Shown here: in pieces, positions 5,804 to 23,418 of the stretch | How the letters are laid out: the number at the start of each line of letters is the position of its first letter | How positions within the stretch are numbered: position 1 is the stretch's first letter | Assembly (NCBI RefSeq): GCF_024220515.1 | Contig: NZ_JAMXOT010000135.1 | Location: 1 to 37,974, forward strand | DNA from: Oscillatoria sp. HE19RPO | Lineage (GTDB): Bacteria > Cyanobacteriota > Cyanobacteriia > Cyanobacteriales > Laspinemataceae | DNA length: 37,974 nt | Reading direction: 5' to 3' | Program-made: the position numbers and the translations under genes | Notes under the pieces: generated by a model | What the model was told of the DNA's origin: nothing | What the model saw: the letters and a program-made list of their open reading frames with translations, nothing else | Database searches by the model: none

Positions 5804-6598
5804 ATGCTTTGGAACAAATCGTTTAAACAAGTTACCACATTTTCAGTGGCGTTATGTGTGGGAATGGTCATGAGTCCGGGTCTGAATTTGCAGGCGCAGG
5901 CTCAAAATGAACCGGATTCCCTCTCTCCAACCACTGGGGGTCCTTGGTTACTGAGTCAATCATTCACGCCACCGGATCGCGGGGCCCCGGAACGGACGGC
6001 AGAAGGCGGCACTAGAGGCTGTGGAACCTATCGATCGGGCCAAAAACCTTTGACAGCCTTAACCCCCGGTGATGCGATGCCCTTGACGTTGGCCGAACAC
6101 CCCACATTTTACTGGTATGTACCCACATCAGGCCCCCAAACCTTAGAGTTTGAATTGGTGGAGGGGGATAATGAGGAGAATGTGGTTTATCAAGCCAAAA
6201 TCCAGATTCCCCAAGGGGGGATTATTAGTCACAGTTTACCTGTGGATGATACGACCAGCCTAAATCCGGGGAAAAGTTATCATTGGTACTTAAAGATGGT
6301 CTGCGATGCGAGCGATCGCACCGGGGATATTGTGGTGGATGGCTGGATCGAACGAGTGGAACCGGATGAAACCATTGCCCTAGAACTCAAAAATGCCAAA
6401 ACACCGAGCAGTCGGGTTTCGATCTATGCTCGGGAAGGGATTTGGCATGATGCTCTGAGCATTCTGGCTCAAATGCGCCGGGATAATCCCGAGGATACCG
6501 TCCTGTTTGCCCGGTGGCAACAGTTTCTTGATTCTGTGGAATTGGGGGACTTCGCAACAGAACCCCTTGTAGATGCGACTCAAATCAGTCAGGAGTAA
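5804..6598 (+). CDS. DUF928 domain secreted protein
   Basis: This 264-residue protein matches the cyanobacterial DUF928 family, whose role is unknown. An N-terminal signal peptide is visible (basic start, hydrophobic core FSVALCVGMVMSPGL, then QAQAQ as a probable cleavage area near residue 34). The family signature PPDRGAPERTAEGGTRGCG lies at about residues 60-78, followed by a beta-rich region with FYWYVPTSGPQTLEFELV and YHWYLKMVCD. The ATG at 5804 has AAGGGAG about 10 bases upstream. Only four bases separate its stop from the ATG of the CHAT-haemagglutinin gene, so they are translated from one message. DUF928 genes are often found beside CHAT and CHASE2 genes in cyanobacteria, which suggests a shared role in export or surface display; this is inference. 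Confidence 0.88.
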   Translation: MLWNKSFKQVTTFSVALCVGMVMSPGLNLQAQAQNEPDSLSPTTGGPWLLSQSFTPPDRGAPERTAEGGTRGCGTYRSGQKPLTALTPGDAMPLTLAEHPTFYWYVPTSGPQTLEFELVEGDNEENVVYQAKIQIPQGGIISHSLPVDDTTSLNPGKSYHWYLKMVCDASDRTGDIVVDGWIERVEPDETIALELKNAKTPSSRVSIYAREGIWHDALSILAQMRRDNPEDTVLFARWQQFLDSVELGDFATEPLVDATQISQE

Positions 6599-6602
6599 TG
6601 GC

Positions 6603-9600
6603 ATGAAGTCATCATGGGTAATGGGCCCAAGTACCCTATTGGCCGTAGTTTGTTGGTGGGGCGTTTTCCTAGAAGCGGGAAGGACTCAATCGATAATTCC
6701 CGCTGTGGATGGAACCGGGACCCAAGTTACCCATGATGGCGATCGCTTTGATATCCAGGGGGGTAGTCGCTCCAGTGATGGCTCCAATCTCTTCCACAGT
6801 TTCGATCGCTTTGGTTTAGACGCGGGTCAAACGGCTAACTTTTGGGCAAATCCCGACATCCAGAATATCTTCACTCGGGTTGTCGGGGGCAACCCTTCTT
6901 TAATTCAGGGGCTGCTACAAGTCAGCGGCAGCCAATCCAATCTATACTTAATCAACCCGGCAGGTATCCTCTTTGGTCCTACAGCTCAGTTAAACCTCAC
7001 GGGGTCTTTTTTTGCCACCACTGCCAACTCGCTCGGATTCAACTCTGGAGCGAGTTTTGATGTATTGGGAAGCTCTTCCTATCACAGCCTCACCGGGTCC
7101 CCCAATCAGTTTTATTTTACTCAATCTCAAGCTGGAAGTATTGTCAATGCCGGAGATTTGACCGTTGGCAGCGGGGAACATCTTACCCTACTGGGGGGAA
7201 CGGTTTTAAATACGGGAACCTTAACCGCCCCTGGGGGCAACATTACCATCGCCAGTGTCCCCGGACCCCATCGCGTGCGCTTGTCTCAAGAAGGAATGCT
7301 GCTGAGTCTGGAATTCCAGGCGATCGCCCCTAGTGCCGAGATGGGAATTTCTCCCCTCCAGTTACCCCAACTGCTCACGGAAGGAAATCTCACTCAGGGA
7401 CACGCCCGAGGTGCCGTGGTGAATCCTGATGGCACGATTACCTTAACGGGTTCAAATTTATCCTGGGCCCCAGAGTCAGGAACCACCATTGTCAGCGGTG
7501 AGATTTCCGTTGCTGATGGGGTGCAAACGGGGGGAACCGTCACGATTTTAGGGGAAAAAATTGGGGCGATCGCCTCAACCCTCGATGCCTCTGGAGGCAA
7601 TGGCGGGGGCGAAGTCTATCTCGGTGGCGATTTCCAAGGCGGGAGTCGATTGCCTAGTGCCGATCGCACCTTAATCAGTCCCGATTCCACTATTCGAGTG
7701 GATGCCCTCAGTACCGGGAATGGGGGACGCGCCATTGTCTGGAGCGATCGCCTGAGCGGATTCTATGGCAACATTAGCGCCCGAGGCGGTTCCGACCCTT
7801 TTACTCCCTCCCAAAATGGCGGATTTGTAGAAGTTTCAGGCAAAGAGCACCTCATTTTTGAAGGCATCGTTGATGTCAGCGCCACCCACGGAAGTGTCGG
7901 AACCCTGCTCCTCGACCCGTTGAATATTATCATCTCTAATGATGAAGATGACCCCTCTAATGTAGGCGATTTACTGCCGAATATTTTAGCCGGTGAGGAC
8001 GATGAATTTGCCGAGGCCACTATTACAATTTCTGCCGAAACGCTTCAAAATCAAAGTGGCAATATCATCCTAGAAGCCACCAATGATATCCGAATTGCCA
8101 ATAATGTTGCCCTCGAATTTGTCCCCGGGGAAACCATTGTATTGCGGGCGGATGCCGACAACGAAGGAACCGGCGCTTTTTTGATGAATCCCTCCAGCCA
8201 GATCCAGGCTCAAGGGCGAAATATTGAGATTTTTGGAGCGAATATCACAGTTTCCACGATCGATACCTCCGCAGAAGAAGATGGGGGAAATATCTCCCTC
8301 ACCAGTAGCGATGGCAATATTCAAGCTCGTGAGCTAATTTCCCAGTCTACAGGTTCGGGGACTGGCGGAAATATTACCCTGCAAGCAGGAGGGACCGGGG
8401 CGATTAATATCCAACCGGGCAACTTAGATGCGTCTTCCGCATCTGGAGATGGCGGGACAATCACCCTAACAACTGAAACTGGGGATATTACCACGGGAGA
8501 GATTATCTCCAAATCTGATGGCGAGGGAACTGCCGGGGATATTATCCTGACGGCGGGAGGGACTGGGGCGATTAATGTTAGCCAAGGTAACGCGATTTTA
8601 GATGCGTCTTCCGGATCGGGGGATGGGGGAAGCATCACCCTGACGACTGAAACTGGGAATATTACAACCCGCACGATTGTTGCTAAATCCGATGGAGAGG
8701 GAAGCGGAGGAGAGATTAGTCTCAATGCCGCAGGGGAGGGAAGAATCATTATCCAAACTGGAAATGCTAGGATTGATGCATCTTCGGCCTCCGGCGATGG
8801 CGGGCTCATCGAACTGAATACCGAGGGCGGCGATATCACAAGCCAGGACCTGTCCACTAATTCTAATGCGACTCCGGGAAACATTAACCTGGATGCCAGC
8901 ACGGGAACCCTGCGCTTGGGAGGCAATATCAACACGAACAACCTCAATGTGAGAGCGAATGCGATTGAGGCTACGGGAAACATTGCCACGATCGGGCGCG
9001 GACGATTGGTCATAGAACCCGGTTCCGCAGATAGAAATGTGGCGGTCGCAGCACCGACGAACAATAATCTACCCAATGACACCTTGATCTTAAGCGATAA
9101 CCTGCTAAATGCCCTCACTAATCGCTTTAACTCGATTGTCATCGGGAGACCGGATAGTACCGGGAATGTAACTCTGTATAGCGCATTTAATTTCAATGCG
9201 CCAGTGACGATCGCCGGTGGAGAGACGCTCATAGGTCCCAACCAGGATACTAACTGGACCCTCACAGGCCCGGGCCGAGGCACTCTCAGCGGCTATGGCA
9301 ACGACATGAGGTTTGAAAATATTGAAAACTTGACTGGCGGTAGTGCCAGTGATACGTTTGTGTTTCGCGATGGGGCGCGCTTTGGCAGACTCGATGGTGC
9401 AGGAGGGAACGATCGCCTGGATTATTCCGATTATACTGGCGAAGTTACCGTTAATCTTCCCCAAAATATCGCCACGGGGACAAGCGGTGCCTTTAACATT
9501 GAAAATGTCACCCTGCCCGATGAAGAACCTGAACCCACTCCACCACCAGATGAAGAACCTGAACCCACTCCACCACCAGATGAAGAACCTGAACCCACTC

Positions 9601-11384
9601 CACCCCCGACGAACGAGGAGGACAACTTTTTTACCCCGGTGATCCAACCGGCCCCTAACATCGACCCCCTGCCCTTACCGCCTTCGCCATCCAGTACACC
9701 GGAAACCCCGATCCCTGAACCCAGTGTTCCGACTTCTCCGGAACCCGATATCAGTGAGCCCATTCCGGTGGCAGAACCCGCACCCACTCCGGTGGCAGAA
9801 CCCGCGCCCACTCCGGTGGCAGAACCCGCACCCACTCCGGTGGCAGAACCCGCACCCACTCCGGTGGCAGAACCCGCACCCACTCCGGTGGCAGAACCCG
9901 CGCCCACTCCGGTGGCGGAACCTGAGACTCAGGGTCCGGGGGGCTTACCTGAACCCCCGATCGCCACCCCAGTTCCAGCAGAACCCGCACTCATGAATGT
10001 TCCCTCCTTGACTGAAACGGGCTATCCTTGGACACCTTCCCTAGGCGATCGGTTTATGGGGTCGCCGGGACTTGAAGAAAGCAAAGAACGGTCTGTGTCT
10101 GATATTTTGACTCAACCAGCCATTCTCAACTTGAACAATCGCAGCGATATCGATCGCCTGCTAGATTCCGGGGAAATAGAACTGGCGATTGAAATGGGCG
10201 ATCGCGTGTTTAGTGAGGACTTTGAGGAATATTTAGGGCAGAATATTAATCTTCCTTATTTATCCTTTGAGGCCATTCAAAACAAGCTCAGAGAAATGGA
10301 AAACTTGACGGGCAAAAATGCCGGTCTGATTTATGTATTTTCTAGAAATGAGCAATTAGATTTAGTCTTAATTCCCCCTGTGGGCAAACCGATTTACAAA
10401 AGTGTTCCTGAAGCCAACCAAGCCGTCCTTTTCCAAGAATTGCAGCGTTTACAGGGAGAAATTGGCAATGTCGCCAGACGGCGCACAACCAGTTATTTAG
10501 CCCCGGCCCAGCAACTCTATCAATGGATTATTGCCCCCTTAGAACCGGACCTTAAACGCTTGGGAATTGAGACGACCATTTTTAGTATGGATGCGGGATT
10601 GCGGATGTTGCCCATTGCCGCCTTACATGATGGGGAGCAGTTTTTAGTCGAAAAATACAGCCTCACCTTAATTCCCAGCCTGCATTTAACCGATGCCCGT
10701 TATAGCAACTGGAAAAGTACCGAAGTGTTAGCGATGGGATTGTCAGAATTTTCTGACCAATATCCGTTACCCGCGGTGCCGGTAGAAATTGACACTATTG
10801 TTAATCAATTATGGCCCGGTACTGGCTTCCTGAATGAAGCCGTCACCCTGGATAAATTGAAAGAACTGCGCCAACAAGAACCGTTCGGGATCATTCACCT
10901 AGCGACCCACGGCCAATTTAACGCGGGAGCGCGAGATAACTCCTACCTCCAGTTATGGGGGGAAAAATTACACCTGGACCGGATGCAGCAGTTACAATGG
11001 AACGATCCGCCCGTAGAATTGTTAGTGCTATCCGCCTGTCGCACGGCCATCGGAGATTTAGAGGCGGAATTTGGCTTTGCTGGATTAGCGGTGCAAGCCG
11101 GGGTTAAATCAGCCTTAGCCAGTCTTTGGTACGCCAATGATGCGGGGACTTTGGGACTGATGAGCGAGTTTTACCAAAACTTGCGATCGGCCCCGATTAA
11201 GGCAGAGGCATTGAGGAGAGCACAAATCGCCATGATTGGCGGGACTGTGCATCTGGAAAATGGGGCCTTGGTCGGGTCGTTCGGAAACGTAGAACTCCCA
11301 CCGGAGCTTTCACGCCTCGGGAATCGAGAGTTAAGACACCCCTATTATTGGGCGGGTTTTACAATGATTGGCAGTCCCTGGTAG
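6603..11384 (+). CDS. Secreted filamentous-haemagglutinin-type protein with C-terminal CHAT caspase-like domain
   Basis: A 1593-residue multidomain protein. A hydrophobic segment (residues 11-22) is followed at about 31-260 by the two-partner-secretion/haemagglutinin N-terminal domain with the signature NLYLINPAGILFGPTAQL. A long beta-helix-like region follows, with at least three related repeats at about 590-740 (DASSGSGDGGSITLTTETG-like). A proline-rich linker at about 973-1110 holds three copies of PEPTPPPDEE and six of PVAEPAPT. The last 300 residues are a CHAT domain with catalytic dyad His1436 (HLATHG) and Cys1479 (LSACRT). CHAT proteins are caspase-family cysteine peptidases; here one is tied to a secretion module, so it may act outside the cytoplasm. 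The ATG at 6603 is chosen because AGGAG at 6591-6595 precedes it and an upstream in-frame start at 6573 would lie inside the DUF928 gene. No TpsB partner transporter is in the window. Confidence 0.92.
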   Translation: MKSSWVMGPSTLLAVVCWWGVFLEAGRTQSIIPAVDGTGTQVTHDGDRFDIQGGSRSSDGSNLFHSFDRFGLDAGQTANFWANPDIQNIFTRVVGGNPSLIQGLLQVSGSQSNLYLINPAGILFGPTAQLNLTGSFFATTANSLGFNSGASFDVLGSSSYHSLTGSPNQFYFTQSQAGSIVNAGDLTVGSGEHLTLLGGTVLNTGTLTAPGGNITIASVPGPHRVRLSQEGMLLSLEFQAIAPSAEMGISPLQLPQLLTEGNLTQGHARGAVVNPDGTITLTGSNLSWAPESGTTIVSGEISVADGVQTGGTVTILGEKIGAIASTLDASGGNGGGEVYLGGDFQGGSRLPSADRTLISPDSTIRVDALSTGNGGRAIVWSDRLSGFYGNISARGGSDPFTPSQNGGFVEVSGKEHLIFEGIVDVSATHGSVGTLLLDPLNIIISNDEDDPSNVGDLLPNILAGEDDEFAEATITISAETLQNQSGNIILEATNDIRIANNVALEFVPGETIVLRADADNEGTGAFLMNPSSQIQAQGRNIEIFGANITVSTIDTSAEEDGGNISLTSSDGNIQARELISQSTGSGTGGNITLQAGGTGAINIQPGNLDASSASGDGGTITLTTETGDITTGEIISKSDGEGTAGDIILTAGGTGAINVSQGNAILDASSGSGDGGSITLTTETGNITTRTIVAKSDGEGSGGEISLNAAGEGRIIIQTGNARIDASSASGDGGLIELNTEGGDITSQDLSTNSNATPGNINLDASTGTLRLGGNINTNNLNVRANAIEATGNIATIGRGRLVIEPGSADRNVAVAAPTNNNLPNDTLILSDNLLNALTNRFNSIVIGRPDSTGNVTLYSAFNFNAPVTIAGGETLIGPNQDTNWTLTGPGRGTLSGYGNDMRFENIENLTGGSASDTFVFRDGARFGRLDGAGGNDRLDYSDYTGEVTVNLPQNIATGTSGAFNIENVTLPDEEPEPTPPPDEEPEPTPPPDEEPEPTPPPTNEEDNFFTPVIQPAPNIDPLPLPPSPSSTPETPIPEPSVPTSPEPDISEPIPVAEPAPTPVAEPAPTPVAEPAPTPVAEPAPTPVAEPAPTPVAEPAPTPVAEPETQGPGGLPEPPIATPVPAEPALMNVPSLTETGYPWTPSLGDRFMGSPGLEESKERSVSDILTQPAILNLNNRSDIDRLLDSGEIELAIEMGDRVFSEDFEEYLGQNINLPYLSFEAIQNKLREMENLTGKNAGLIYVFSRNEQLDLVLIPPVGKPIYKSVPEANQAVLFQELQRLQGEIGNVARRRTTSYLAPAQQLYQWIIAPLEPDLKRLGIETTIFSMDAGLRMLPIAALHDGEQFLVEKYSLTLIPSLHLTDARYSNWKSTEVLAMGLSEFSDQYPLPAVPVEIDTIVNQLWPGTGFLNEAVTLDKLKELRQQEPFGIIHLATHGQFNAGARDNSYLQLWGEKLHLDRMQQLQWNDPPVELLVLSACRTAIGDLEAEFGFAGLAVQAGVKSALASLWYANDAGTLGLMSEFYQNLRSAPIKAEALRRAQIAMIGGTVHLENGALVGSFGNVELPPELSRLGNRELRHPYYWAGFTMIGSPW
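9519..9608 (+). repeat. Three tandem 30-bp repeats coding for DEEPEPTPPP
   Basis: The 30-base unit beginning GATGAAGAACCTGAACCCAC occurs three times in phase with the reading frame, nearly without change, within the proline-rich linker of the CHAT protein. Near-identity at DNA level points to recent expansion. Confidence 0.85.
9765..9908 (+). repeat. Six tandem 24-bp repeats coding for PVAEPAPT
   Basis: Six consecutive 24-base units starting CCGGTGGCAGAACCC, differing mainly at one third-position base, with a seventh degenerate copy after 9908. The units code for an extended proline/alanine spacer just before the CHAT portion. Copy number is likely to vary by slippage or recombination without breaking frame. 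Confidence 0.85.
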
Positions 11385-15472: not shown

Positions 15473-15631
15473 ATGGTTTCCAGCAATATCCAATTTCTGA
15501 GGGAAATGAACTTGCCAGGATTGAGGAGAGAAGCGTACAATAAAAGCGGAAAAAGTGACCTGATTGGGAGCCAAATTTTTCAACCCAGGGTTGAAATTTA
15601 TTGTATAGAGAGGGTGAAGGCAGATGAATAA
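15473..15631 (+). CDS. Candidate 52-residue protein overlapping the dynamin-cluster membrane protein gene
   Basis: The ATG at 15473 is preceded by a near-ideal ribosome site AAGGAGGT at 15454-15461, with a rather long 12-base gap from the GGAGG core. The frame runs 52 codons, starting MVSSNIQFLREMNLPGLRR, and its stop overlaps the next gene by eight bases (stop at 15629-15631, next ATG at 15624), an arrangement typical of translational coupling. The product is small, basic in the middle and has no signal peptide or membrane helix. No family is recognised. It may be a true small protein or simply a leader peptide that loads ribosomes onto the next gene. Confidence 0.45.
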   Translation: MVSSNIQFLREMNLPGLRREAYNKSGKSDLIGSQIFQPRVEIYCIERVKADE

Positions 15632-15974
15632 CAAACGCAACCCAGACCCAGAAAAACAAAATCGGCAAAAGGAACTCGCAGAGCGAGAACGAGAAATTGC
15701 AGAGCGAGAGCGATCGCTGCGACTGCGGGAAATGGAGATGGAGCTATACAAAGGAGAACCTCCGCTATATCAAACCCTTAAAGAAGAACCCGTTGAATCG
15801 AAACTGCAACGCTGGGGAAGAAAACTCAAACGGGTGGGAAAGTATGCCCTGATGGTGGTGGTGGTGTTTGCCGCTGTTCGGGTGGGAACGATGGTGGCGA
15901 GTGCGGTGATTGTTGGGGCGATCGCTTGGGTCGGTTACAAACTTTTTTTTGACTCAGATAAACCTAATAAATAG
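15624..15974 (+). CDS. Small coiled-coil membrane protein in the dynamin cluster
   Basis: A 116-residue hypothetical protein. Residues about 12-42 form a strongly charged helix rich in ERE/AERER repeats, probably a coiled coil. A basic stretch (KLQRWGRKLKRVGK) precedes a long hydrophobic region, about residues 73-109, big enough for two short membrane helices or one long hairpin, and the C-terminus is short and charged. It would thus be membrane-anchored with a cytoplasmic coiled coil. It overlaps the 52-codon candidate ORF by eight bases and ends 11 bases before the first dynamin gene, so it is clearly part of that message. Given its place it may recruit or regulate the dynamins at the membrane; this is inference. 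The start at 15624 has AGAGGG nine bases upstream. Confidence 0.82.
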   Translation: MNNKRNPDPEKQNRQKELAEREREIAERERSLRLREMEMELYKGEPPLYQTLKEEPVESKLQRWGRKLKRVGKYALMVVVVFAAVRVGTMVASAVIVGAIAWVGYKLFFDSDKPNK

Positions 15975-15985
15975 AGGAAATACCA

Positions 15986-18070
15986 ATGGTTTATAAAATG
16001 GAAGCCGCAAGTTTTCTTAACAATTTGGAACGAGTGGCTCAAGTCCGATTTGAGGTCGCTGCCTGTCTTGAACGAATGGTTGACTTATTAGAAACTGACG
16101 AATCTCAAGGGGATAAAACCTCGGGAAAGCTGGGATTAGAAAGCAACATCGCGGACCTGACTCTCGGAAGCAAAAATTTACGGCAGGGGGTGTTTAGACT
16201 ATTGGTTCTGGGCGACATGAAGCGAGGAAAAAGCACCTTTTTAAATGCTTTAATTGGAGAGAATCTATTACCAGCAGATGTGAATCCCTGTACGGCATTG
16301 CTCACGGTGTTACGCTACGGAAAACAGAAAACCGTGACGGTTTACTTCAAAGAGGGCAAACCTCCAGAACGGTTAGATTTTCCTACCTTCAAGGAGCGTT
16401 ATACCATTAACCCAGAAGAGGCAAAAACCCTAGAACAGGAGAAAAAGTTAGCCTTTCCTGATGTGAACTATGCTGTGGTTGAATATCCCTTAGCATTACT
16501 GGAAAAGGGCATTGAAATTGTGGACAGTCCGGGGCTGAATGATACGGAAGCGCGGAATGAAATGTCCCTTAATTATATCAATAACTGTCATGGAATTTTG
16601 TTCGTACTCCGCGCGGGTCAGCCCGTGACTTTAGAGGAGCGCCGCTATTTGGATAATTATATCAAAGGGCGGGGATTAACGGTTTTCTTCCTGATTAATG
16701 CTTGGGATGAAATTAGCAAGGGACTGATTGACCCGGATGATACAGAGGAACTCCAAGAAGCAGAGGAAAAACTGCGGCAGGTGTTTCATAGCAATTTGGC
16801 TGATTATTGTCAGGTGGATGGCTATGATCTGTATCCTGAACGAGTGTTTGAAATTTCTTCACTTGAGGCATTGCGGCGACGAGTGAAAGACCCGGAGCAA
16901 TCCTTAGAAGGGACGGGATTTCCCGAGTTTATGGGGGCGATTAATACCTTTTTGACGGAAGAAAGAGCGGTAGCTCAAATGCGGCAAGCGCGAACTTTAG
17001 CGCGCCAGAGTACCGATCGCGTGCGGGAGGCGATCGCCCGTCGGATTCCTTTACTCGATCGCGATGTCAACGAATTGAAAGCGCGGATTTCCTCCGTAGA
17101 ACCGGAATTCGAGAAACTCAATGACATCCGCGATCGCTTCTCCGATGAAATTAAAAGCATCCGGGATCAGAAAGCGCGGGGAATTTCTGAGTCATTTCGC
17201 GCCTACATTCTCAATCTTGGCACCACGTTTGAAGCCGATTTTTTACGATATCAACCGGATTTAGGATTTTTTGAATCCTTAAACCAAGGCAAACGGGAAG
17301 CATTTAATGCCGCATTCAAACAGGCATTTGAACAATACCTGAATGATAAAATCACCGCCTGGGAAAAGACCGCTAACCAAGAAATGCAGGAGGCTTTTAA
17401 CCAGCTTGCCAAGCGCGCATCCGAGTATGGTTCAGCCTATAGTCGCATCACCCAGACGATGACTGATAAATTAATTGGTCAACAGATTTATACCCGCAGC
17501 GATTTCAATTCAGAAGACGAGTCCCCCACCTGGGCGAGTTGGGCAATGGGATTAGTTTCTCTGGCAACGGGTAACATCGCAGGGGTCTTTTTAGCAAGTG
17601 CAGGATTTGACTGGAAAAACATTCTCGTTAACTCCCTGTCGGTGATTGGTATCTATAGCTTTTTAGCCATTTTTTCGATTCCAGTTCTGTTAACTGGACC
17701 CCTGGGAATCTTGCTCGTGGGATTAGGCGTGGGTGCATTGCAGGCGGAACAAGGTCGCAAAGAATTGATTAAGGCGACAAAAAAAGAGCTGATTAAATAT
17801 CTACCTCAAATCGCAGAAGAACAGTGGCAAGTCATTCATCAAGCGATTACGGACTGTTTTGATACTTATGACCGCGAAGTTCTAAACCGACTGAATGATG
17901 ACATAAAATCTCGTCGGATGGAATTAGATAACTTGCTCCAACAAAAGCAATCCCGAGAAATTAATCGAGACAGCGAGTTAAAGCGCCTGCAAAAACTAGA
18001 GGCAGACATCATCTCAGAATGCCGGACCGTTACCCGGGTTTATGAGTCCTTAATTTCATACAATGGCTGA
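15986..18070 (+). CDS. Bacterial dynamin-like protein A (BDLP1 type)
   Basis: A 694-residue GTPase closely resembling Nostoc punctiforme BDLP1, the structurally studied bacterial dynamin that coats and reshapes membranes. GTPase motifs are complete: P-loop GDMKRGKST with Lys82, switch threonine Thr103 (NPCTALLT), G3 DSPG at 180-183, and NAWD at 238-241. Long helices (neck and trunk) follow. A hydrophobic paddle at about 515-590 (MGLVSLATGNIAGVFLASAG, then SFLAIFSIPVLLTGPLGILL) should insert into membrane, and a helical C-terminus returns to the neck. AGAGGA lies seven bases before the ATG at 15986. A second ATG at 15998 aligns better with paralogue B, but the longer form matches BDLP1 numbering as I recall it (P-loop lysine 82). 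The 11-base spacing to the preceding gene indicates co-transcription. Confidence 0.95.
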   Translation: MVYKMEAASFLNNLERVAQVRFEVAACLERMVDLLETDESQGDKTSGKLGLESNIADLTLGSKNLRQGVFRLLVLGDMKRGKSTFLNALIGENLLPADVNPCTALLTVLRYGKQKTVTVYFKEGKPPERLDFPTFKERYTINPEEAKTLEQEKKLAFPDVNYAVVEYPLALLEKGIEIVDSPGLNDTEARNEMSLNYINNCHGILFVLRAGQPVTLEERRYLDNYIKGRGLTVFFLINAWDEISKGLIDPDDTEELQEAEEKLRQVFHSNLADYCQVDGYDLYPERVFEISSLEALRRRVKDPEQSLEGTGFPEFMGAINTFLTEERAVAQMRQARTLARQSTDRVREAIARRIPLLDRDVNELKARISSVEPEFEKLNDIRDRFSDEIKSIRDQKARGISESFRAYILNLGTTFEADFLRYQPDLGFFESLNQGKREAFNAAFKQAFEQYLNDKITAWEKTANQEMQEAFNQLAKRASEYGSAYSRITQTMTDKLIGQQIYTRSDFNSEDESPTWASWAMGLVSLATGNIAGVFLASAGFDWKNILVNSLSVIGIYSFLAIFSIPVLLTGPLGILLVGLGVGALQAEQGRKELIKATKKELIKYLPQIAEEQWQVIHQAITDCFDTYDREVLNRLNDDIKSRRMELDNLLQQKQSREINRDSELKRLQKLEADIISECRTVTRVYESLISYNG

Positions 18071-18195
18071 AATAGCATCCGGTTTGTAGAGCCTTTTTGT
18101 CCGGGTCTCGTTTTCAGGTCGGGAAAAGACACAGAAGGACTGCGATCGGGTAAACTTGATTCACCGATATTCCCTTAATCAGCAAGAGCTATAAA

Positions 18196-20262
18196 ATGGA
18201 AACCAAAAGTTTTCTTACGAATTTAGAGCGGGTCGCCGAAGTGCGAGCAGATGTGGCTAATGCGTTCAGCAAGATAGCCGATATTTTGAAAGAAGCTGAA
18301 ACAGCAGGCGGTAACAAATCTGGGCAATTGGGCTTAGATCGAGAAATTGAAGATACTCAGAAAGCCAGCCAAAATTTACGGCATGGGGTCTTCCGGTTGC
18401 TGGTTTTGGGAGATATGAAGCGGGGTAAAAGTACGTTTCTCAATGCGTTAATTGGAGAGAATATCTTACCCAGTGATGTCAACCCTTGTACCGCCCTGCT
18501 GACCGTGTTGCGCTACGGACCAGAAAAGAAGGTGACGGTCTATTTCAAGGATGGAAAAAGTCCCCAAGAGCTAGATTTTAAGAGCTTTAAACAGAACTAC
18601 ACCATCCCTCCCTCAGAAGCGAAACAACTAGAACAGAACCAGCAACAAGCGTTTCCGGATGTAGATTATGCGGTGTTAGAGTACCCGCTATCCTTACTGC
18701 AAAAAGGGGTGGAAATTGTTGATAGTCCTGGGTTGAATGATACGGAATCGCGCAATGAATTGTCTTTAGGGTATATTAACAATTGCCACGCGATTTTATT
18801 TGTGATGAGGGCATCACAACCTTGCACCCTGGGAGAACGCCGCTATTTGGAGAATTATATTAAGGGGCGGGGATTGAGTGTGTTCTTCCTGATTAATGCT
18901 TGGGATCAGGTGCGCGAGAGTTTAATCGACCCGGATGATGAGGAAGAATTGCAGGATTCCGAGAGCCGATTGCGGCAAGTTTTTAAGGCAAATTTGGCGG
19001 AATATTGTGTGGTAGATGGGCATGATATTTATGAGGAACGGGTGTTTGAAATTTCAGCAATTCAAGCGTTGAGACGACGGATCAAGGATGCAGTCGCCTC
19101 GTTAGAGGGAACGGGATTTCCCAACTTTTTAGGGGCGCTGAATGCATTTTTAACTCAGGAACGGGCGGTTTCTGAATTGCGGCAGGCGCGAACTTTAGCG
19201 CGTCAAACCTCGACCCGAGTGCGGGAGGCGATCGCCCGCCGGATTCCGTTATTAGATGGGGATGTGAATGAGTTAAAGCAGCGGATTAGTTCCGTAGAAC
19301 CGGAGTTTAAGGCTTTAACGAATATTCGCGATCGCTTCAAGGATGAAATTAAACAGGTTCGAGATAGCAAAGCGCGGGCGATCGCCGATTCATTCCGCAC
19401 CTATGTTCTCAACTTAGGCAATACCTTTGAAAGCGATTTCTTAACCTATCAACCGGATATCAAATTTGGAGACTTCATCGACAAAGGCAAACGCGAGAAC
19501 TTTGAAGCCCGATTCCGGCAGGCATTTGAGCAGTACATTAATGATAAATTATCCGCTTGGAGCCTCACCGCCGAACAAGAGATGAATGGGGCGTTCATCC
19601 AATTAGCCCAAAGTGCCTCCCAGTACGGCTCTGACTACACCAAAGTCACCACTAAAATTACCGAAAAACTCACCGGACAAAAAATCCATCCCGGTAGCAA
19701 CAGTTTACCAGAAGATAGCTCTCCCGCCTGGGCAAATTGGGCAATGGGATTAGTTTCATTAGCCACAGGCAATCTAGCAGGAGCCGCCCTCATGGGAGCC
19801 GGTTTCGACTGGAAAAATATCCTGTTAAATATGGTAGCCGTGATTGGAATTAGTGCGGCAATTTCCACCGTGTTTGGGATTATTTTGGGGCCGATTACTT
19901 TAGCACTGGTGGGCTTAGGTGTTGGGTTATTTCAGGCCGATCGCGCTCGCATAGAAGTGGTCAAGGTAACCAAAAAAGAACTGGTCAAATATCTGCCCCA
20001 AGTCGCCGAGGAACAGTGGCAGCCGATTCACGATGCGGTTAAAGAGTGCTTTGATGCTTATGACCGCGAAGTGACTCAACGCATCGATGATGATATCAAA
20101 TCCCGTCAAGCAGAATTAGATAATTTGCTGTCACAAAAGGAATCCCATGAAATTAATCGGGTCAGTGAATTAGACCGACTCAAAAAGTTAGAGGCTGATG
20201 TCAGTTTGGAGGCGCGAAATATTGAGAGCGAATATCAGGATTTACTGATTGCTGTAGGTTGA
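18196..20262 (+). CDS. Bacterial dynamin-like protein B (BDLP1 type, paralogue)
   Basis: A 688-residue paralogue of the preceding gene, alike over its whole length. It has P-loop GDMKRGKST with Lys78, Thr99, DSPG at 176-179 and NAWD at 234-237, and its own hydrophobic paddle (MGLVSLATGNLAGAALMGAG; IISAVFG-like stretch; LGPITLALVGLGVGLFQAD). The two differ most in the paddle and the early stalk, as expected if they bind distinct lipids or form a hetero-oligomer. The gap between them is 125 bases, long enough for a separate promoter, though none is clear. Both starts lie in the same short motif TATAAAATGGAA. Dynamins often occur as side-by-side pairs in bacteria. A tandem-repeat array begins immediately after the stop. 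Confidence 0.95.
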   Translation: METKSFLTNLERVAEVRADVANAFSKIADILKEAETAGGNKSGQLGLDREIEDTQKASQNLRHGVFRLLVLGDMKRGKSTFLNALIGENILPSDVNPCTALLTVLRYGPEKKVTVYFKDGKSPQELDFKSFKQNYTIPPSEAKQLEQNQQQAFPDVDYAVLEYPLSLLQKGVEIVDSPGLNDTESRNELSLGYINNCHAILFVMRASQPCTLGERRYLENYIKGRGLSVFFLINAWDQVRESLIDPDDEEELQDSESRLRQVFKANLAEYCVVDGHDIYEERVFEISAIQALRRRIKDAVASLEGTGFPNFLGALNAFLTQERAVSELRQARTLARQTSTRVREAIARRIPLLDGDVNELKQRISSVEPEFKALTNIRDRFKDEIKQVRDSKARAIADSFRTYVLNLGNTFESDFLTYQPDIKFGDFIDKGKRENFEARFRQAFEQYINDKLSAWSLTAEQEMNGAFIQLAQSASQYGSDYTKVTTKITEKLTGQKIHPGSNSLPEDSSPAWANWAMGLVSLATGNLAGAALMGAGFDWKNILLNMVAVIGISAAISTVFGIILGPITLALVGLGVGLFQADRARIEVVKVTKKELVKYLPQVAEEQWQPIHDAVKECFDAYDREVTQRIDDDIKSRQAELDNLLSQKESHEINRVSELDRLKKLEADVSLEARNIESEYQDLLIAVG

Positions 20263-20505
20263 GAGACCTAACCCCCCGGCCCCCTTCCCTAGGAGGGCAG
20301 GGGGAGCAAGAGGGTCTAGGGACGAAGAGACCTAACCCCCCGGCCCCCTTCCCTAGGAGGGCAGGGGGAGCAAGAGGGTCTAGGGACGAAGAGACCTAAC
20401 CCCCCGGCCCCCTTCCCTAGCAGGGCAGGGGGAGCAAGAGGGTCTAGGGACCAAGAGACCTAACCCCCCGGCCCCCTTCCCTAGCAGGGCAGGGGGAGCA
20501 AGAGG
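20263..20505. repeat. 64-bp tandem repeat, nearly four copies
   Basis: Copies begin with GAGACCTAACCCCCCGGCCC at 20263, 20327, 20391 and 20455, exactly 64 bases apart; the fourth is cut after about 51 bases. Each contains a hairpin-like core CCCCCTTCCCTAGGAGGGCAGGGGG. Copies differ by single changes (AGGAGG versus AGCAGG, GACGAA versus GACCAA). It begins at the first base after the dynamin B stop codon. Confidence 0.95.
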
Positions 20506-20547
20506 TTAGTTATTGTCAAGGATGAAATTTTACTCACGAGATCACTC

Positions 20548-20967
20548 ATGGATAAACTACAACCTAGAAAAGAGGACCGACACATCCAGGAAGGTCGTCA
20601 CAATATTGTGATTGGACAAAAGGTAAGTTCAGATAAAGTGCAGCAAGCCAGGACATTCCGCCGTCAGATGACAGAAGAAGAGAAAATTTTATGGCAATAC
20701 CTGCGTGCTAATCGATTAAATGGCTGGCACTTTCGGCGACAACAGATTATTGATGGATTTATTACAGATTTCTATTGCCACGCTGCTGGATTAGTGGTAG
20801 AAGTCGATGGAAAAACTCATGAAAAGCAAATGGAATATGATTTAGAACGTGACCAAATTATCACTAGCCGTAACCTGCGTGTGCTACGAATAAAAAATGA
20901 GGAAATTAGAGAAAATATTGATCGGGTGATTATGCGTATTGCAGCAGCCTGTCAAGAAGAAACTTAA
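20548..20967 (+). CDS. DUF559 endonuclease-like protein
   Basis: A 139-residue protein of the DUF559 family, related to Vsr-like and PD-(D/E)XK nuclease folds. Family features are visible from about residue 33: ARTFRRQMTEEEKILWQYLR, then GWHFRRQQIIDGFITDFYCH, VVEVDGKTHEKQ and LRVLRIKNEEI. The putative metal-binding acidic residues are the Asp of ITDFY and the Glu/Asp of EVDG. The first 30 residues are a variable charged extension. Such genes are often mobile or repeat-associated. It lies between two unrelated tandem-repeat arrays within the dynamin cluster and may be an insertion rather than a functional partner. No strong ribosome site stands before 20548. Confidence 0.87.
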   Translation: MDKLQPRKEDRHIQEGRHNIVIGQKVSSDKVQQARTFRRQMTEEEKILWQYLRANRLNGWHFRRQQIIDGFITDFYCHAAGLVVEVDGKTHEKQMEYDLERDQIITSRNLRVLRIKNEEIRENIDRVIMRIAAACQEET

Positions 20968-21329
20968 CCAGCAAAACCCCTTCTCACTCCTCCAAAAGCA
21001 CTTGCTTTCCAGAAGAGAGAACTCAGGAATTAATGTCTTTTCCGCAACCGGGAAAATTACCAATGAACTAATATCATCCCCCTACCAGCAATCAAAAAAT
21101 TTCCTCATTCTCCCGATTCTCCCTCTCCTCGTAGGAGAGGGGCGGGGAGAGGTCCCTCCGCAATCCAAAGCGTTCCTCATTCTCCCTCTCCTCGTAGGAG
21201 AGGGCCGGGGAGAGGTCCCTCCGCAATCCAAAGCGTTCCTCATTCTCCCTCTCCTCGTAGGAGAGGGCCGGGGAGAGGTCCCTCCGCAATCCAAAGCGTT
21301 CCTTAAAATTGTTAACCCGAGGCAAAAAG
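20968..21329. other. Intergenic stretch with 63-bp tandem array before dynamin C
   Basis: No gene is supported here; reading frames on both strands across 21082-21325 come from the repeat itself. The first 130 bases are unremarkable and the rest is the tandem array listed separately, followed by the GAGG ribosome site of the next gene at 21319-21322. Confidence 0.7.
21101..21303. repeat. 63-bp tandem repeat, three copies
   Basis: Copies start TTCCTCATTCTCCC at 21101, 21173 and 21236; the second and third are 63 bases apart and the first carries a nine-base insertion. Each includes CCTCTCCTCGTAGGAGAGG, a hairpin, and GGTCCCTCCGCAATCC. It is unrelated in sequence to the 64-bp array on the other side of the DUF559 gene. 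Confidence 0.92.
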
Positions 21330-23000
21330 ATGCAGCAGGAAATTTATCAAGATGTAGTCAGGAATATCAGGGCAGCATTAGGGGCATTAGAACTGGATAA
21401 AAGTTTACCCCTGTATCAAGATAGCCTGACCATTTGCGAAGCGTTGGAAAATCCGGGCTTTCGGATTGCCGTTTTTGGTCCTTTTAATTATGGCAAATCT
21501 ACCTTGCTCAATGCTTTGCTGGGACAGCGGACTTTGCCAATTGATTTAATTCCGACAACGGGGGCGGCAATTCATGTTAAATATGGGGAAGAACTGAGCG
21601 CTAAAATTACTTTAAAGGATGGACAGGTAATCAGCGATCGCGGGACGGCTATCCTCAAGCAATATGCTATTTTAGACCAAGACCGCCGGATGCGAAATGA
21701 TGTCGCTCAGGTGGAGGTGTTCTGTCCCCATTCTTTCCTGCAAATTGGGGTAGAATTTTTGGATTTGCCGGGAACCAATGACCGGGAAGAACAGGATAAT
21801 CTAGTCAGAAACCAACTGTTAAGCGCTGATTTAGTAGTGCAGGTACTGGATGCTCGTAAGTTGATGACCCTGGGAGAACGGGAAAATCTCCGGGATTGGC
21901 TGCTCGATCGCGGGATTGAAACGGTGGTATTTGCGGTCAATTTTATGAACTTAATGGACCCTGATGACCAAAAAGAAGTGTCCAGTCGGATGCGGTTTGT
22001 GGCGGAAAGTTTTCGCTCCAATTTGCCTCCAGGAATTAGTAATTTGTATCGAGTTGATGCTTTACCAGCCCTCAGAGCAAGACTAAAAGGGGATGCGGCA
22101 GCAGCACAGATGACAGGACTACCGATGTTTGAATCGGCGCTGCAAAGTATTGTGGCATTTCATCAAGAAAAAACTGCCAATTGGTTGCCGCGCTTAGAGG
22201 CGATCGCCGCTCAAATCTGCCAGTCTCTCACGGCAAAACTGGAAGGGGTAACTACTGAGTTAGCCGTTGCTGAAGAAAAACAGGCCAATAAAATTCAGTT
22301 GCAACAGAAGGCGGAAAAACTGATTAAACAGGGGTTTGAGGGGAGCGTTTCTGATTTGCAAAGTAAGCTGTATTTACCGAACCTGTTAAAACGATATGAA
22401 CTAGAGGCGATCGCTGCACTCCAACAGGGTCAATTTCGCACCTGGGAAACGCAATCTTTTCAACCGGCAATGGTTCAATATCAGCAAGAAATTACCAATT
22501 GGGTGAATAAAGCTTGTGAGTTTTTTAATCACCCTCACCCTGGAGTATTAACCCTGAAATTTCCTGACTCTCCCTCTGTCACCGTTACCCAAACTCCCTC
22601 TACTCCTAAGTCGCCAAAACGTGCCAGCGCTATCCCGGGGGAGAAGACATTGGATTGGCTATTAGAAAGTCCTGTGGGCAATACGGTGGCTCGCAGTGCT
22701 TATTATATCTTGAATCGAATTGTTGAACCCAATTCATCCACCCCCGCCACTCCTGCCACTCCTGTGAACTCTCCTGATTTACAAACGATCTATAAAAAAG
22801 CGGTGGAGGATTATCTGACGAGGTTCAGTGAAGCGGCTTTTTTGACTCTGCAAGACTATGAAAAAATAGCCTTGTCTGTGATTCAATTTCAACCACCGAA
22901 GCCCTCATCCGAAATGATAAAACAGCGCCATCAAATTCAGTTTTTACAGAATGTATTGAATGCGTTAACTCAGGATGTGCAGTCTTTGAAAGAAACTTGA
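21330..23000 (+). CDS. Dynamin-family GTPase C (short form)
   Basis: A 556-residue GTPase, shorter and quite different from A and B. It has P-loop GPFNYGKST (residues 50-58), switch threonines at IPTTG, and G3 DLPG at 145-148; the G4 position is unusual (AVNFMNLMD instead of a clear N/TKxD). A long helical region follows (about 280-400). The C-terminal part has a low-complexity stretch (TPSTPKSPKR; TPATPATPVNSP) and no obvious transmembrane paddle, so membrane binding would have to be peripheral or through partners. ATG 21330 is preferred to a TTG at 21309 because GAGG lies seven bases before it. It precedes the J-domain gene by 79 bases. Large-with-small dynamin groupings exist in other bacteria, so a joint complex with A and B is plausible but unproven. 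Confidence 0.88.
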   Translation: MQQEIYQDVVRNIRAALGALELDKSLPLYQDSLTICEALENPGFRIAVFGPFNYGKSTLLNALLGQRTLPIDLIPTTGAAIHVKYGEELSAKITLKDGQVISDRGTAILKQYAILDQDRRMRNDVAQVEVFCPHSFLQIGVEFLDLPGTNDREEQDNLVRNQLLSADLVVQVLDARKLMTLGERENLRDWLLDRGIETVVFAVNFMNLMDPDDQKEVSSRMRFVAESFRSNLPPGISNLYRVDALPALRARLKGDAAAAQMTGLPMFESALQSIVAFHQEKTANWLPRLEAIAAQICQSLTAKLEGVTTELAVAEEKQANKIQLQQKAEKLIKQGFEGSVSDLQSKLYLPNLLKRYELEAIAALQQGQFRTWETQSFQPAMVQYQQEITNWVNKACEFFNHPHPGVLTLKFPDSPSVTVTQTPSTPKSPKRASAIPGEKTLDWLLESPVGNTVARSAYYILNRIVEPNSSTPATPATPVNSPDLQTIYKKAVEDYLTRFSEAAFLTLQDYEKIALSVIQFQPPKPSSEMIKQRHQIQFLQNVLNALTQDVQSLKET

Positions 23001-23079
23001 ATTTACGGGAAAGTGAAGGAGTGCTATTCGGATATGGGCTAACCCCGCTGGGGCAAATTCAACTGAGGAGGTTTTGGGA

Positions 23080-23418
23080 ATGATTGACCCGTTGGAAGCC
23101 AAATTTCAAGCATGGGAAATGGATGCAGAATTGGCCAAGCTGAAACAGATGAACTTGCGATCGCCTCCCGATGCCACAAATTCCCCTACCCCAACACCCC
23201 CGCCACCTGTCAGCGATAAAATCGCTCGGTTTTACAAAATCCTCGGACTGAACTCCAATGCTTCGTTGAAAGAGGTGAAACAAGCTTATCGAGCTTTACT
23301 GAAAAAATGGCATCCGGATTTATTTTATGATAATCCCGAACAGCAAAAAAAGGCTCAGGAAGTCATCCAAAAAATGAACGAAGTTTATGATAAAATATGT
23401 GCTGAAGTACGAGATTAA
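23080..23418 (+). CDS. J-domain protein (DnaJ-like co-chaperone)
   Basis: A 112-residue protein. Residues 1-28 form a short helix (MIDPLEAKFQAWEMDAELAK), 29-44 a proline-rich linker, and 50-110 a J domain with FYKILGLNSNASLKEVKQAY, the essential HPD motif at 78-80 (KKWHPDLF) and a closing helix. The J domain is thus C-terminal, and no zinc-finger or substrate domain is present. It should stimulate an Hsp70; the N-terminal helix may choose the client. ATG 23080 is fixed by TGAGGAGG at 23064-23071. As the last gene of the dynamin cluster it may help assemble or disassemble dynamin polymers, much as auxilin-type J proteins act on clathrin coats; this parallel is speculative. Confidence 0.88.
   Translation: MIDPLEAKFQAWEMDAELAKLKQMNLRSPPDATNSPTPTPPPPVSDKIARFYKILGLNSNASLKEVKQAYRALLKKWHPDLFYDNPEQQKKAQEVIQKMNEVYDKICAEVRD

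Follow-up and report, generated by a model that had tools for sequence, protein, structure and literature searches.

The 37,974-nucleotide stretch analysed here (the window) is contig C98 of the 7.67 Mb genome of Oscillatoria sp. HE19RPO, a cyanobacterium whose genus is apparently Laspinema. The window contains a cluster of six convincing co-directional genes, encoding a small protein (P1), two bacterial dynamin-like proteins (BDLPs) of the BDLP1 type (A and B), a DUF559 protein, a further dynamin (C) and a J-domain protein (J). The linkage of these genes is well supported; they are co-directional and under purifying selection, and J lies directly behind C in one lineage, whereas in another the two form a single fusion gene. 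On balance, we lean towards the view that P1, A/B, C and J make up a conserved cyanobacterial membrane-remodelling module, a hetero-oligomer whose cycle the dedicated J protein would aid by loading Hsp70. In this reading, the hetero-oligomer, the anchoring role of P1 and the Hsp70 mechanism are inferred.

The dynamins and the small protein P1

All three GTPases were found to have intact P-loops in translation, and their Dynamin_N scores lie far above the Pfam cut-off of 27 bits (Table 1), as expected from the initial annotation. PF21808, the helical domain of bacterial dynamins, is present in full in A and B, which are 66% identical to each other, alongside a G domain with a P-loop, and both were thus confirmed as BDLP1-type proteins. 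The alignment of B with Nostoc BDLP1 (2j68) extends over residues 3-684; the match of C to the same structure was confined to residues 31-298 (91 bits). C had been described as a divergent third dynamin. Rather than being of an unknown kind, it is the usual partner of BDLP1, known as BDLP2 or Tandem A: it lies downstream of a BDLP1-type gene and is orthologous to the Nostocales partner, with 47-51% identity over the dynamin part to five Nostocales proteins in which C and J are fused, and with the same position and strand. The C-terminal DnaJ-like domain described within Nostoc BDLP2 was not found in C itself. The predicted structure of C (mean predicted local distance difference test score, pLDDT, 78.9; predicted template modelling score 0.59) shows a G domain and long helices, with residues 420-480 modelled at low confidence. 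Its top matches among solved structures were the BDLP entries 2j69 and 2j68, with low whole-chain template modelling scores (0.29-0.37).

A search of 99 relatives found C in 34 (E ≤ 1e-90) and BDLP1-type dynamins in 34 (E ≤ 1e-100), with both present in 33. The two exceptions were G078, which has C without a BDLP1-type gene and a neighbouring dynamin 27% identical to B, and G076, which has a BDLP without C. The number of candidates scored per genome was capped (at 14 for C, 11 for BDLP, and 3 and 12 in the searches of the class), and a single absence may therefore be a miss. The annotation covered 76 stretches (the window and 75 loci of relatives), 74 of which contain C. A BDLP gene lay within 3 kb upstream of C on the same strand at 45 of the 74 C loci, and anywhere in the stretch at 48, where nine stretches contain less than 3 kb of upstream sequence and loci cut by contig ends were scored as misses. 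The order P1-BDLP-(BDLP)-C recurs across many families, and the search for conserved gene order in other cyanobacteria, which had been suggested as a check, came out in favour of the grouping, with J next to C in one lineage and joined to it in a second. The neighbours of the locus are constant within the genus and, with other genes, within family f33, which we take to be a Nostocales family.

The mean pairwise ratio of nonsynonymous to synonymous substitution rates (dN/dS) across seven genomes of the genus was 0.056 for B, 0.089 for A, 0.149 for C and 0.172 for P1. A strict P-loop pattern starting with G, the one form counted, was present in 63 of the 74 C proteins. A hydrophobic segment at the tip of C (19-residue hydropathy of at least 1.0) was kept in all nine fusion proteins and in 53/55 other C proteins, and in none of the seven from Laspinema; in three of the 74 proteins the segment was too short, and these were left out. 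Because the segment has been lost in the genus, Laspinema C may rely on A/B or P1 for contact with the membrane.

A conserved membrane-type protein of ~180 amino acids was also noted upstream of C (within four genes, same strand) in nine stretches, for example at L096:11322-11918. It showed no Pfam match in the one member scanned.

P1 is strongly hydrophobic in part, with a maximum 19-residue hydropathy of 2.29. The name DUF3040 was dropped, as the score of 24.5 bits falls just below the cut-off of 24.7. A P1 profile gave 26 matches of at least 64 bits among the 99 relatives, followed by 24 at 43 bits or less. At 88 bits or above, P1 was roughly 1 kb or less away from a BDLP gene, from C or, in G053, from a dynamin fragment in 21 of 23 genomes; the two exceptions (G069 and G072) have no BDLP at E ≤ 1e-100. 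One of three matches at about 65 bits (G030) adjoins a BDLP gene. A P1 gene on the same strand as C was present in 31 of the 74 stretches, and every one of the 31 proteins has a strongly hydrophobic segment (19-residue hydropathy of at least 1.6). This tight gene linkage supports P1 as a probable partner of the dynamins, in agreement with the original suggestion of a small membrane partner.

The J module and its association with C

J was correctly recognised as a J protein: its DnaJ score exceeds the cut-off of 27.8 bits and the His-Pro-Asp (HPD) motif is kept. The motif residues H78, P79 and D80 are invariant in eight J sequences, and HPD is present in 18/18 J modules examined. C ends at 23000 and J is a separate open reading frame (ORF) 79 bp further on, with an ATG start codon and the sequence GAGGAGG eight bases ahead of it. 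Matches in six genus members are 77-84% identical to J, and J adjoins C as a separate gene in all seven genus members that have C. In the eighth member (G001, 92% complete), neither C (E ≤ 1e-10) nor a match to J over its full length was found.

In family f33, all nine C-bearing genomes encode C and the J module as one fused frame of 708-783 amino acids. Dynamin_N and DnaJ both scored above their cut-offs within one frame in each of the three fusions scanned against Pfam. Loci with the J module in frame with C were also obtained from Dolichospermum, Nostoc and Calothrix records. Across 388 genomes of the class, a J-module profile matched 12 genomes at 150 bits or more, with the next match at 86 bits. 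These comprise the genome of the window, the nine fusions, G026 and G432, so that the J module lies beside or is fused to C in 10/12.

The phylogenetic analysis of J domains grouped the 24 modules as a single clade, apart from 37 further J domains of cyanobacteria (support 97/92). The tree included 61 J domains (70 before identical sequences were collapsed) over 63 columns, and the 37 others were the best-scoring rather than a random set. When the 74 C proteins were placed in a tree, the fusions and the Laspinema sequences each formed one clade, the two lying apart behind starred branches, and the J label required two changes; this was a quick tree with Shimodaira-Hasegawa-like approximate likelihood ratio test support only and with long-branch warnings. 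The simplest reading of the two trees is that J became associated with C on two separate occasions; one early association followed by many losses is a less simple alternative.

The stretch ahead of the J domain has invariant residues E6, F9, E13, E17 and K22. In the model of a fusion protein, a helix at residues 627-651 (block pLDDT 56-76) is set apart from the J domain at 669-737 (blocks mostly 87-95). The helix of J matches the C-terminus of TIGR04376 (NCBIfam, E 1.9e-4). The genome of the window encodes a TIGR04376 coiled-coil protein on contig C323 (L216:1447-2073) that ends in the helix motif of J, and a helix profile built without this protein recovered it, apart from J, as the one significant hit in the genome (E 6.3e-4, against E 1.5 for the next). 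Its first four matches in a PDB sequence search were to Vipp1 (sll0617; E 0.0037 to 0.064), which points to a weak resemblance to Vipp1 in sequence. Membership of the PspA family was rejected, as the protein had no PspA match in Pfam and its gene was not among the hits when the genome was searched with PF04012 (PspA_IM30) to E 10. An amphipathic membrane helix was likewise rejected for J: the Eisenberg moment at 100 degrees was no higher than in shuffles for three sequences. The helix link between J and the Vipp1-like TIGR04376 protein is suggestive only. It could mean, as a doubtful extension of our reading, that a J module with a docking helix common to the TIGR04376 protein is a shared device for loading Hsp70 onto membrane-remodelling polymers. 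Such a device would have been recruited twice to the same dynamin partner (adjacent in Laspinema, fused in the Nostocales) and joined once to P1 (in G432), giving Hsp70-driven recycling of a dynamin coat.

The proposed mechanism and its alternatives

Under the hetero-oligomer reading, A and B would assemble on the membrane via hydrophobic tips, with C joining them as a hetero-oligomer like the Campylobacter dynamin-like protein (DLP) pair, and P1 would act as a small receptor or anchor in the membrane. Whether in trans, as in this cluster, or in cis, as in the Nostocales, J would bring Hsp70 (DnaK) to the polymer, and ATP-driven pulling by Hsp70 would disassemble or reset the polymer after GTP hydrolysis. 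Auxilin, which acts on clathrin, and HSP70B/CDJ2/CGE1 on VIPP1 would be the analogues. The cluster, with a J protein that is joined to one of the dynamins in related bacteria, suggests that chaperones aid the recycling of bacterial dynamins.

Several observations weigh against this reading. No J module was detected at 150 bits in 40 of the 50 C-bearing genomes of the class, and J is thus not required for dynamins in general. All 16 C-linked J modules (seven adjacent and nine fused) come from two lineages, so that the counts lack independence. J is under constraint (mean dN/dS 0.294, range 0.17-0.64), though less so than any other gene of the cluster. No Hsp70 was present among the genes annotated in the cluster, and the DnaJ domain of ZipN, which seems to bind FtsZ (PMC7766704), indicates that a J domain need not mean Hsp70.

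J modules also occur without C in three genomes. The stand-alone module of G026 (L102:10031-10982) adjoins an FKBP-type isomerase gene, and neither C nor BDLP (E ≤ 1e-100) was found in this genome. G056 has a shorter J relative interrupted by TAA, near DM13 and DUF815/AAA genes, with no C or BDLP. In G432, a 268-amino-acid frame (L174:4884-5690, minus strand) consists of P1 followed by the linker and J module of C, and the BDLP and C sequences expected in between are absent. Either an in-frame deletion has given rise to a natural P1-J fusion, or the assembly is at fault. G432 lies outside the 50 C-bearing genomes, and its lack of BDLP was read at this locus.

A docking or assembly role for the J module, which would couple C to BDLP1 much as the assembly domain of Cj-DLP1 does, with Hsp70 binding secondary or lost, is considered unlikely, but it has evidence in its favour. 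Docking has been put forward in the literature as an additional role for the Nostoc protein (PMC6104087), ZipN requires its DnaJ domain in order to localise to the Z-ring (PMC7766704), and the helix ahead of the J domain is conserved. Against this, HPD was retained in every module examined, although a module used for assembly alone would have no need of the motif, and J is a separate gene in Laspinema.

Rather less likely, in our view, is that J assists folding in general or serves as a stress co-chaperone, its position beside C providing co-expression only. The modules of G026 and G056, which lack C and have the isomerase gene or the DM13 and DUF815/AAA genes nearby, would fit such a helper. 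The association of J with the same dynamin in two separate lineages, and its fusion throughout the C-bearing f33 genomes, argue against it.

An anti-phage system related to Eleos (LeoA/LeoBC) was also considered and appears highly improbable. A PADLOC scan of seven window proteins gave weak matches of A, B and C to LeoA (52-58 bits; no cut-off given) and to LeoBC, and weak matches of the DUF559 protein to mREase_II and DpdF. However, the NCBIfam LeoA model NF041922 matched B only and scored 19.9 bits where 325 are required, so that membership was not supported, and the neighbours are conserved within the genus and, as a different set, within f33, unlike those of a mobile defence island. A chance grouping of the genes, for which the passenger status of the DUF559 gene might be cited, is already refuted by the gene order kept across many families, the fusion and the phyletic co-occurrence, and its probability is close to negligible.

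Described systems and the remaining features of the locus

The absence of any described system combining a co-chaperone with paired dynamins, as first supposed, did not stand. Most bacterial DLPs are paired, and B2IZD2, encoded beside Nostoc punctiforme BDLP1, carries at its C-terminus a DnaJ-like domain for which DnaK binding and dimerisation with BDLP1 have both been suggested (PMC6104087); BDLP1 is elsewhere described as in tandem with BDLP2 (PMC4159319). The cluster resembles this pair in that a BDLP1-type gene lies next to another dynamin gene with an associated DnaJ-like domain, and the Nostocales B protein of L107, which adjoins a C-J fusion, matches 2j68 at 1329 bits. It differs from the pair as published in its separate J gene, its two BDLP1-type genes and the weakly hydrophobic tip of C, and a P1 gene is unmentioned for the pair in the accessible text of these two papers. 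Two-gene dynamin tandems are likewise known as the cyanobacterial Tandem A and Tandem B clades, and a dynamin-Hsp70 link is known for a separate BDLP clade beside DnaK genes (PMC5827413). The BDLPs of that clade are a different set; the accessible main text does not contain the term 'DnaJ', and its section 7 describes neither a P1-like gene nor a separate J gene.

The Campylobacter proteins Cj-DLP1 and DLP2 are products of adjacent genes and form a hetero-tetramer that tethers membranes (PMC6104087). They share with the cluster the adjacency of dynamin genes; no J protein is named for them in the accessible part of that paper, and the hetero-oligomer proposed for the cluster is by comparison only inferred. 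In Chlamydomonas, HSP70B/CDJ2/CGE1 assemble and disassemble VIPP1 (PMC10602608), where a dedicated J protein directs Hsp70 onto a membrane-remodelling polymer; this polymer is ESCRT-III-like rather than a dynamin, and CDJ2 is likened to J by description. The DnaJ domain of cyanobacterial ZipN, which likely mediates Z-ring localisation (PMC7766704), is a further DnaJ-like domain attached to a GTPase polymer, in this case FtsZ, and is also likened by description. In PMC4164004 and PMC7350238, as accessible, 'J-domain' appears in reference titles only.

The kind of system is thus already known in outline, including a BDLP1 neighbour with a DnaJ-like domain (PMC6104087). What is added here is the separate J gene, the double association of J with C, the P1 partner and the shared helix, for which no account was found in the accessible portions of the open-access PMC literature. 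These touch on the questions of what resets bacterial dynamin polymers and of the role of BDLP1 in the cell. With J encoded apart from its dynamin in Laspinema and as part of it in the Nostocales, Hsp70-assisted recycling can be tested both in trans and in cis, and P1 provides an added candidate membrane partner for a structurally known bacterial dynamin.

Table 1. Features of the dynamin cluster, in positions of the window.
Feature	Position	Strand	Remarks
P1, 116 aa, putative membrane partner	15624..15974	+	charged coiled-coil-like N-terminus; hydrophobic C-terminal part
BDLP A, 694 aa, BDLP1-type dynamin	15986..18070	+	Dynamin_N 109 bits; PF21808 598 bits
BDLP B, 688 aa, BDLP1-type dynamin	18196..20262	+	Dynamin_N 117 bits; PF21808 618 bits; 2j68 1051 bits
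Tandem repeat, 64 bp x 3.8	20262..20505	.	between B and DUF559; outside the system; GC-rich
DUF559 nuclease-like gene, passenger	20548..20967	+	PF04480 118.5 bits
Tandem repeat, 63 bp x 3.0	21116..21303	.	between DUF559 and C; within spurious ORF 20939-21400; GC-rich
C, 556-aa dynamin, BDLP2/Tandem A orthologue	21330..23000	+	Dynamin_N 90 bits; no J domain of its own; weakly hydrophobic tip
J, 112-aa J protein	23080..23418	+	DnaJ 51.8 bits; helix motif at about residues 4-25, Pro-rich linker, J domain with HPD

The DUF559 gene, which the initial annotation had counted in the cluster, is present and lies between B and C in four genus members (G000, G004, G005 and G007). It was not found there in G002, G003 and G006, and it is regarded as a passenger rather than a component, since it is absent from the locus in three of seven genus members; its mean dN/dS was 0.234 (four genomes). 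The gene is flanked by the two different tandem repeats, and a 29-bp piece of the 64-bp repeat occurs in four exact copies. Seven co-directional frames had been counted at the locus, of which six stand as genes; the seventh (20939-21400) holds three tandem copies of the 63-bp repeat and was taken as spurious.

Elsewhere in the window, at 6573-11384, a protein of 1603 amino acids was noted, with filamentous-haemagglutinin-like secreted repeats and a CHAT-like C-terminal domain, as labelled from a reading of its sequence.

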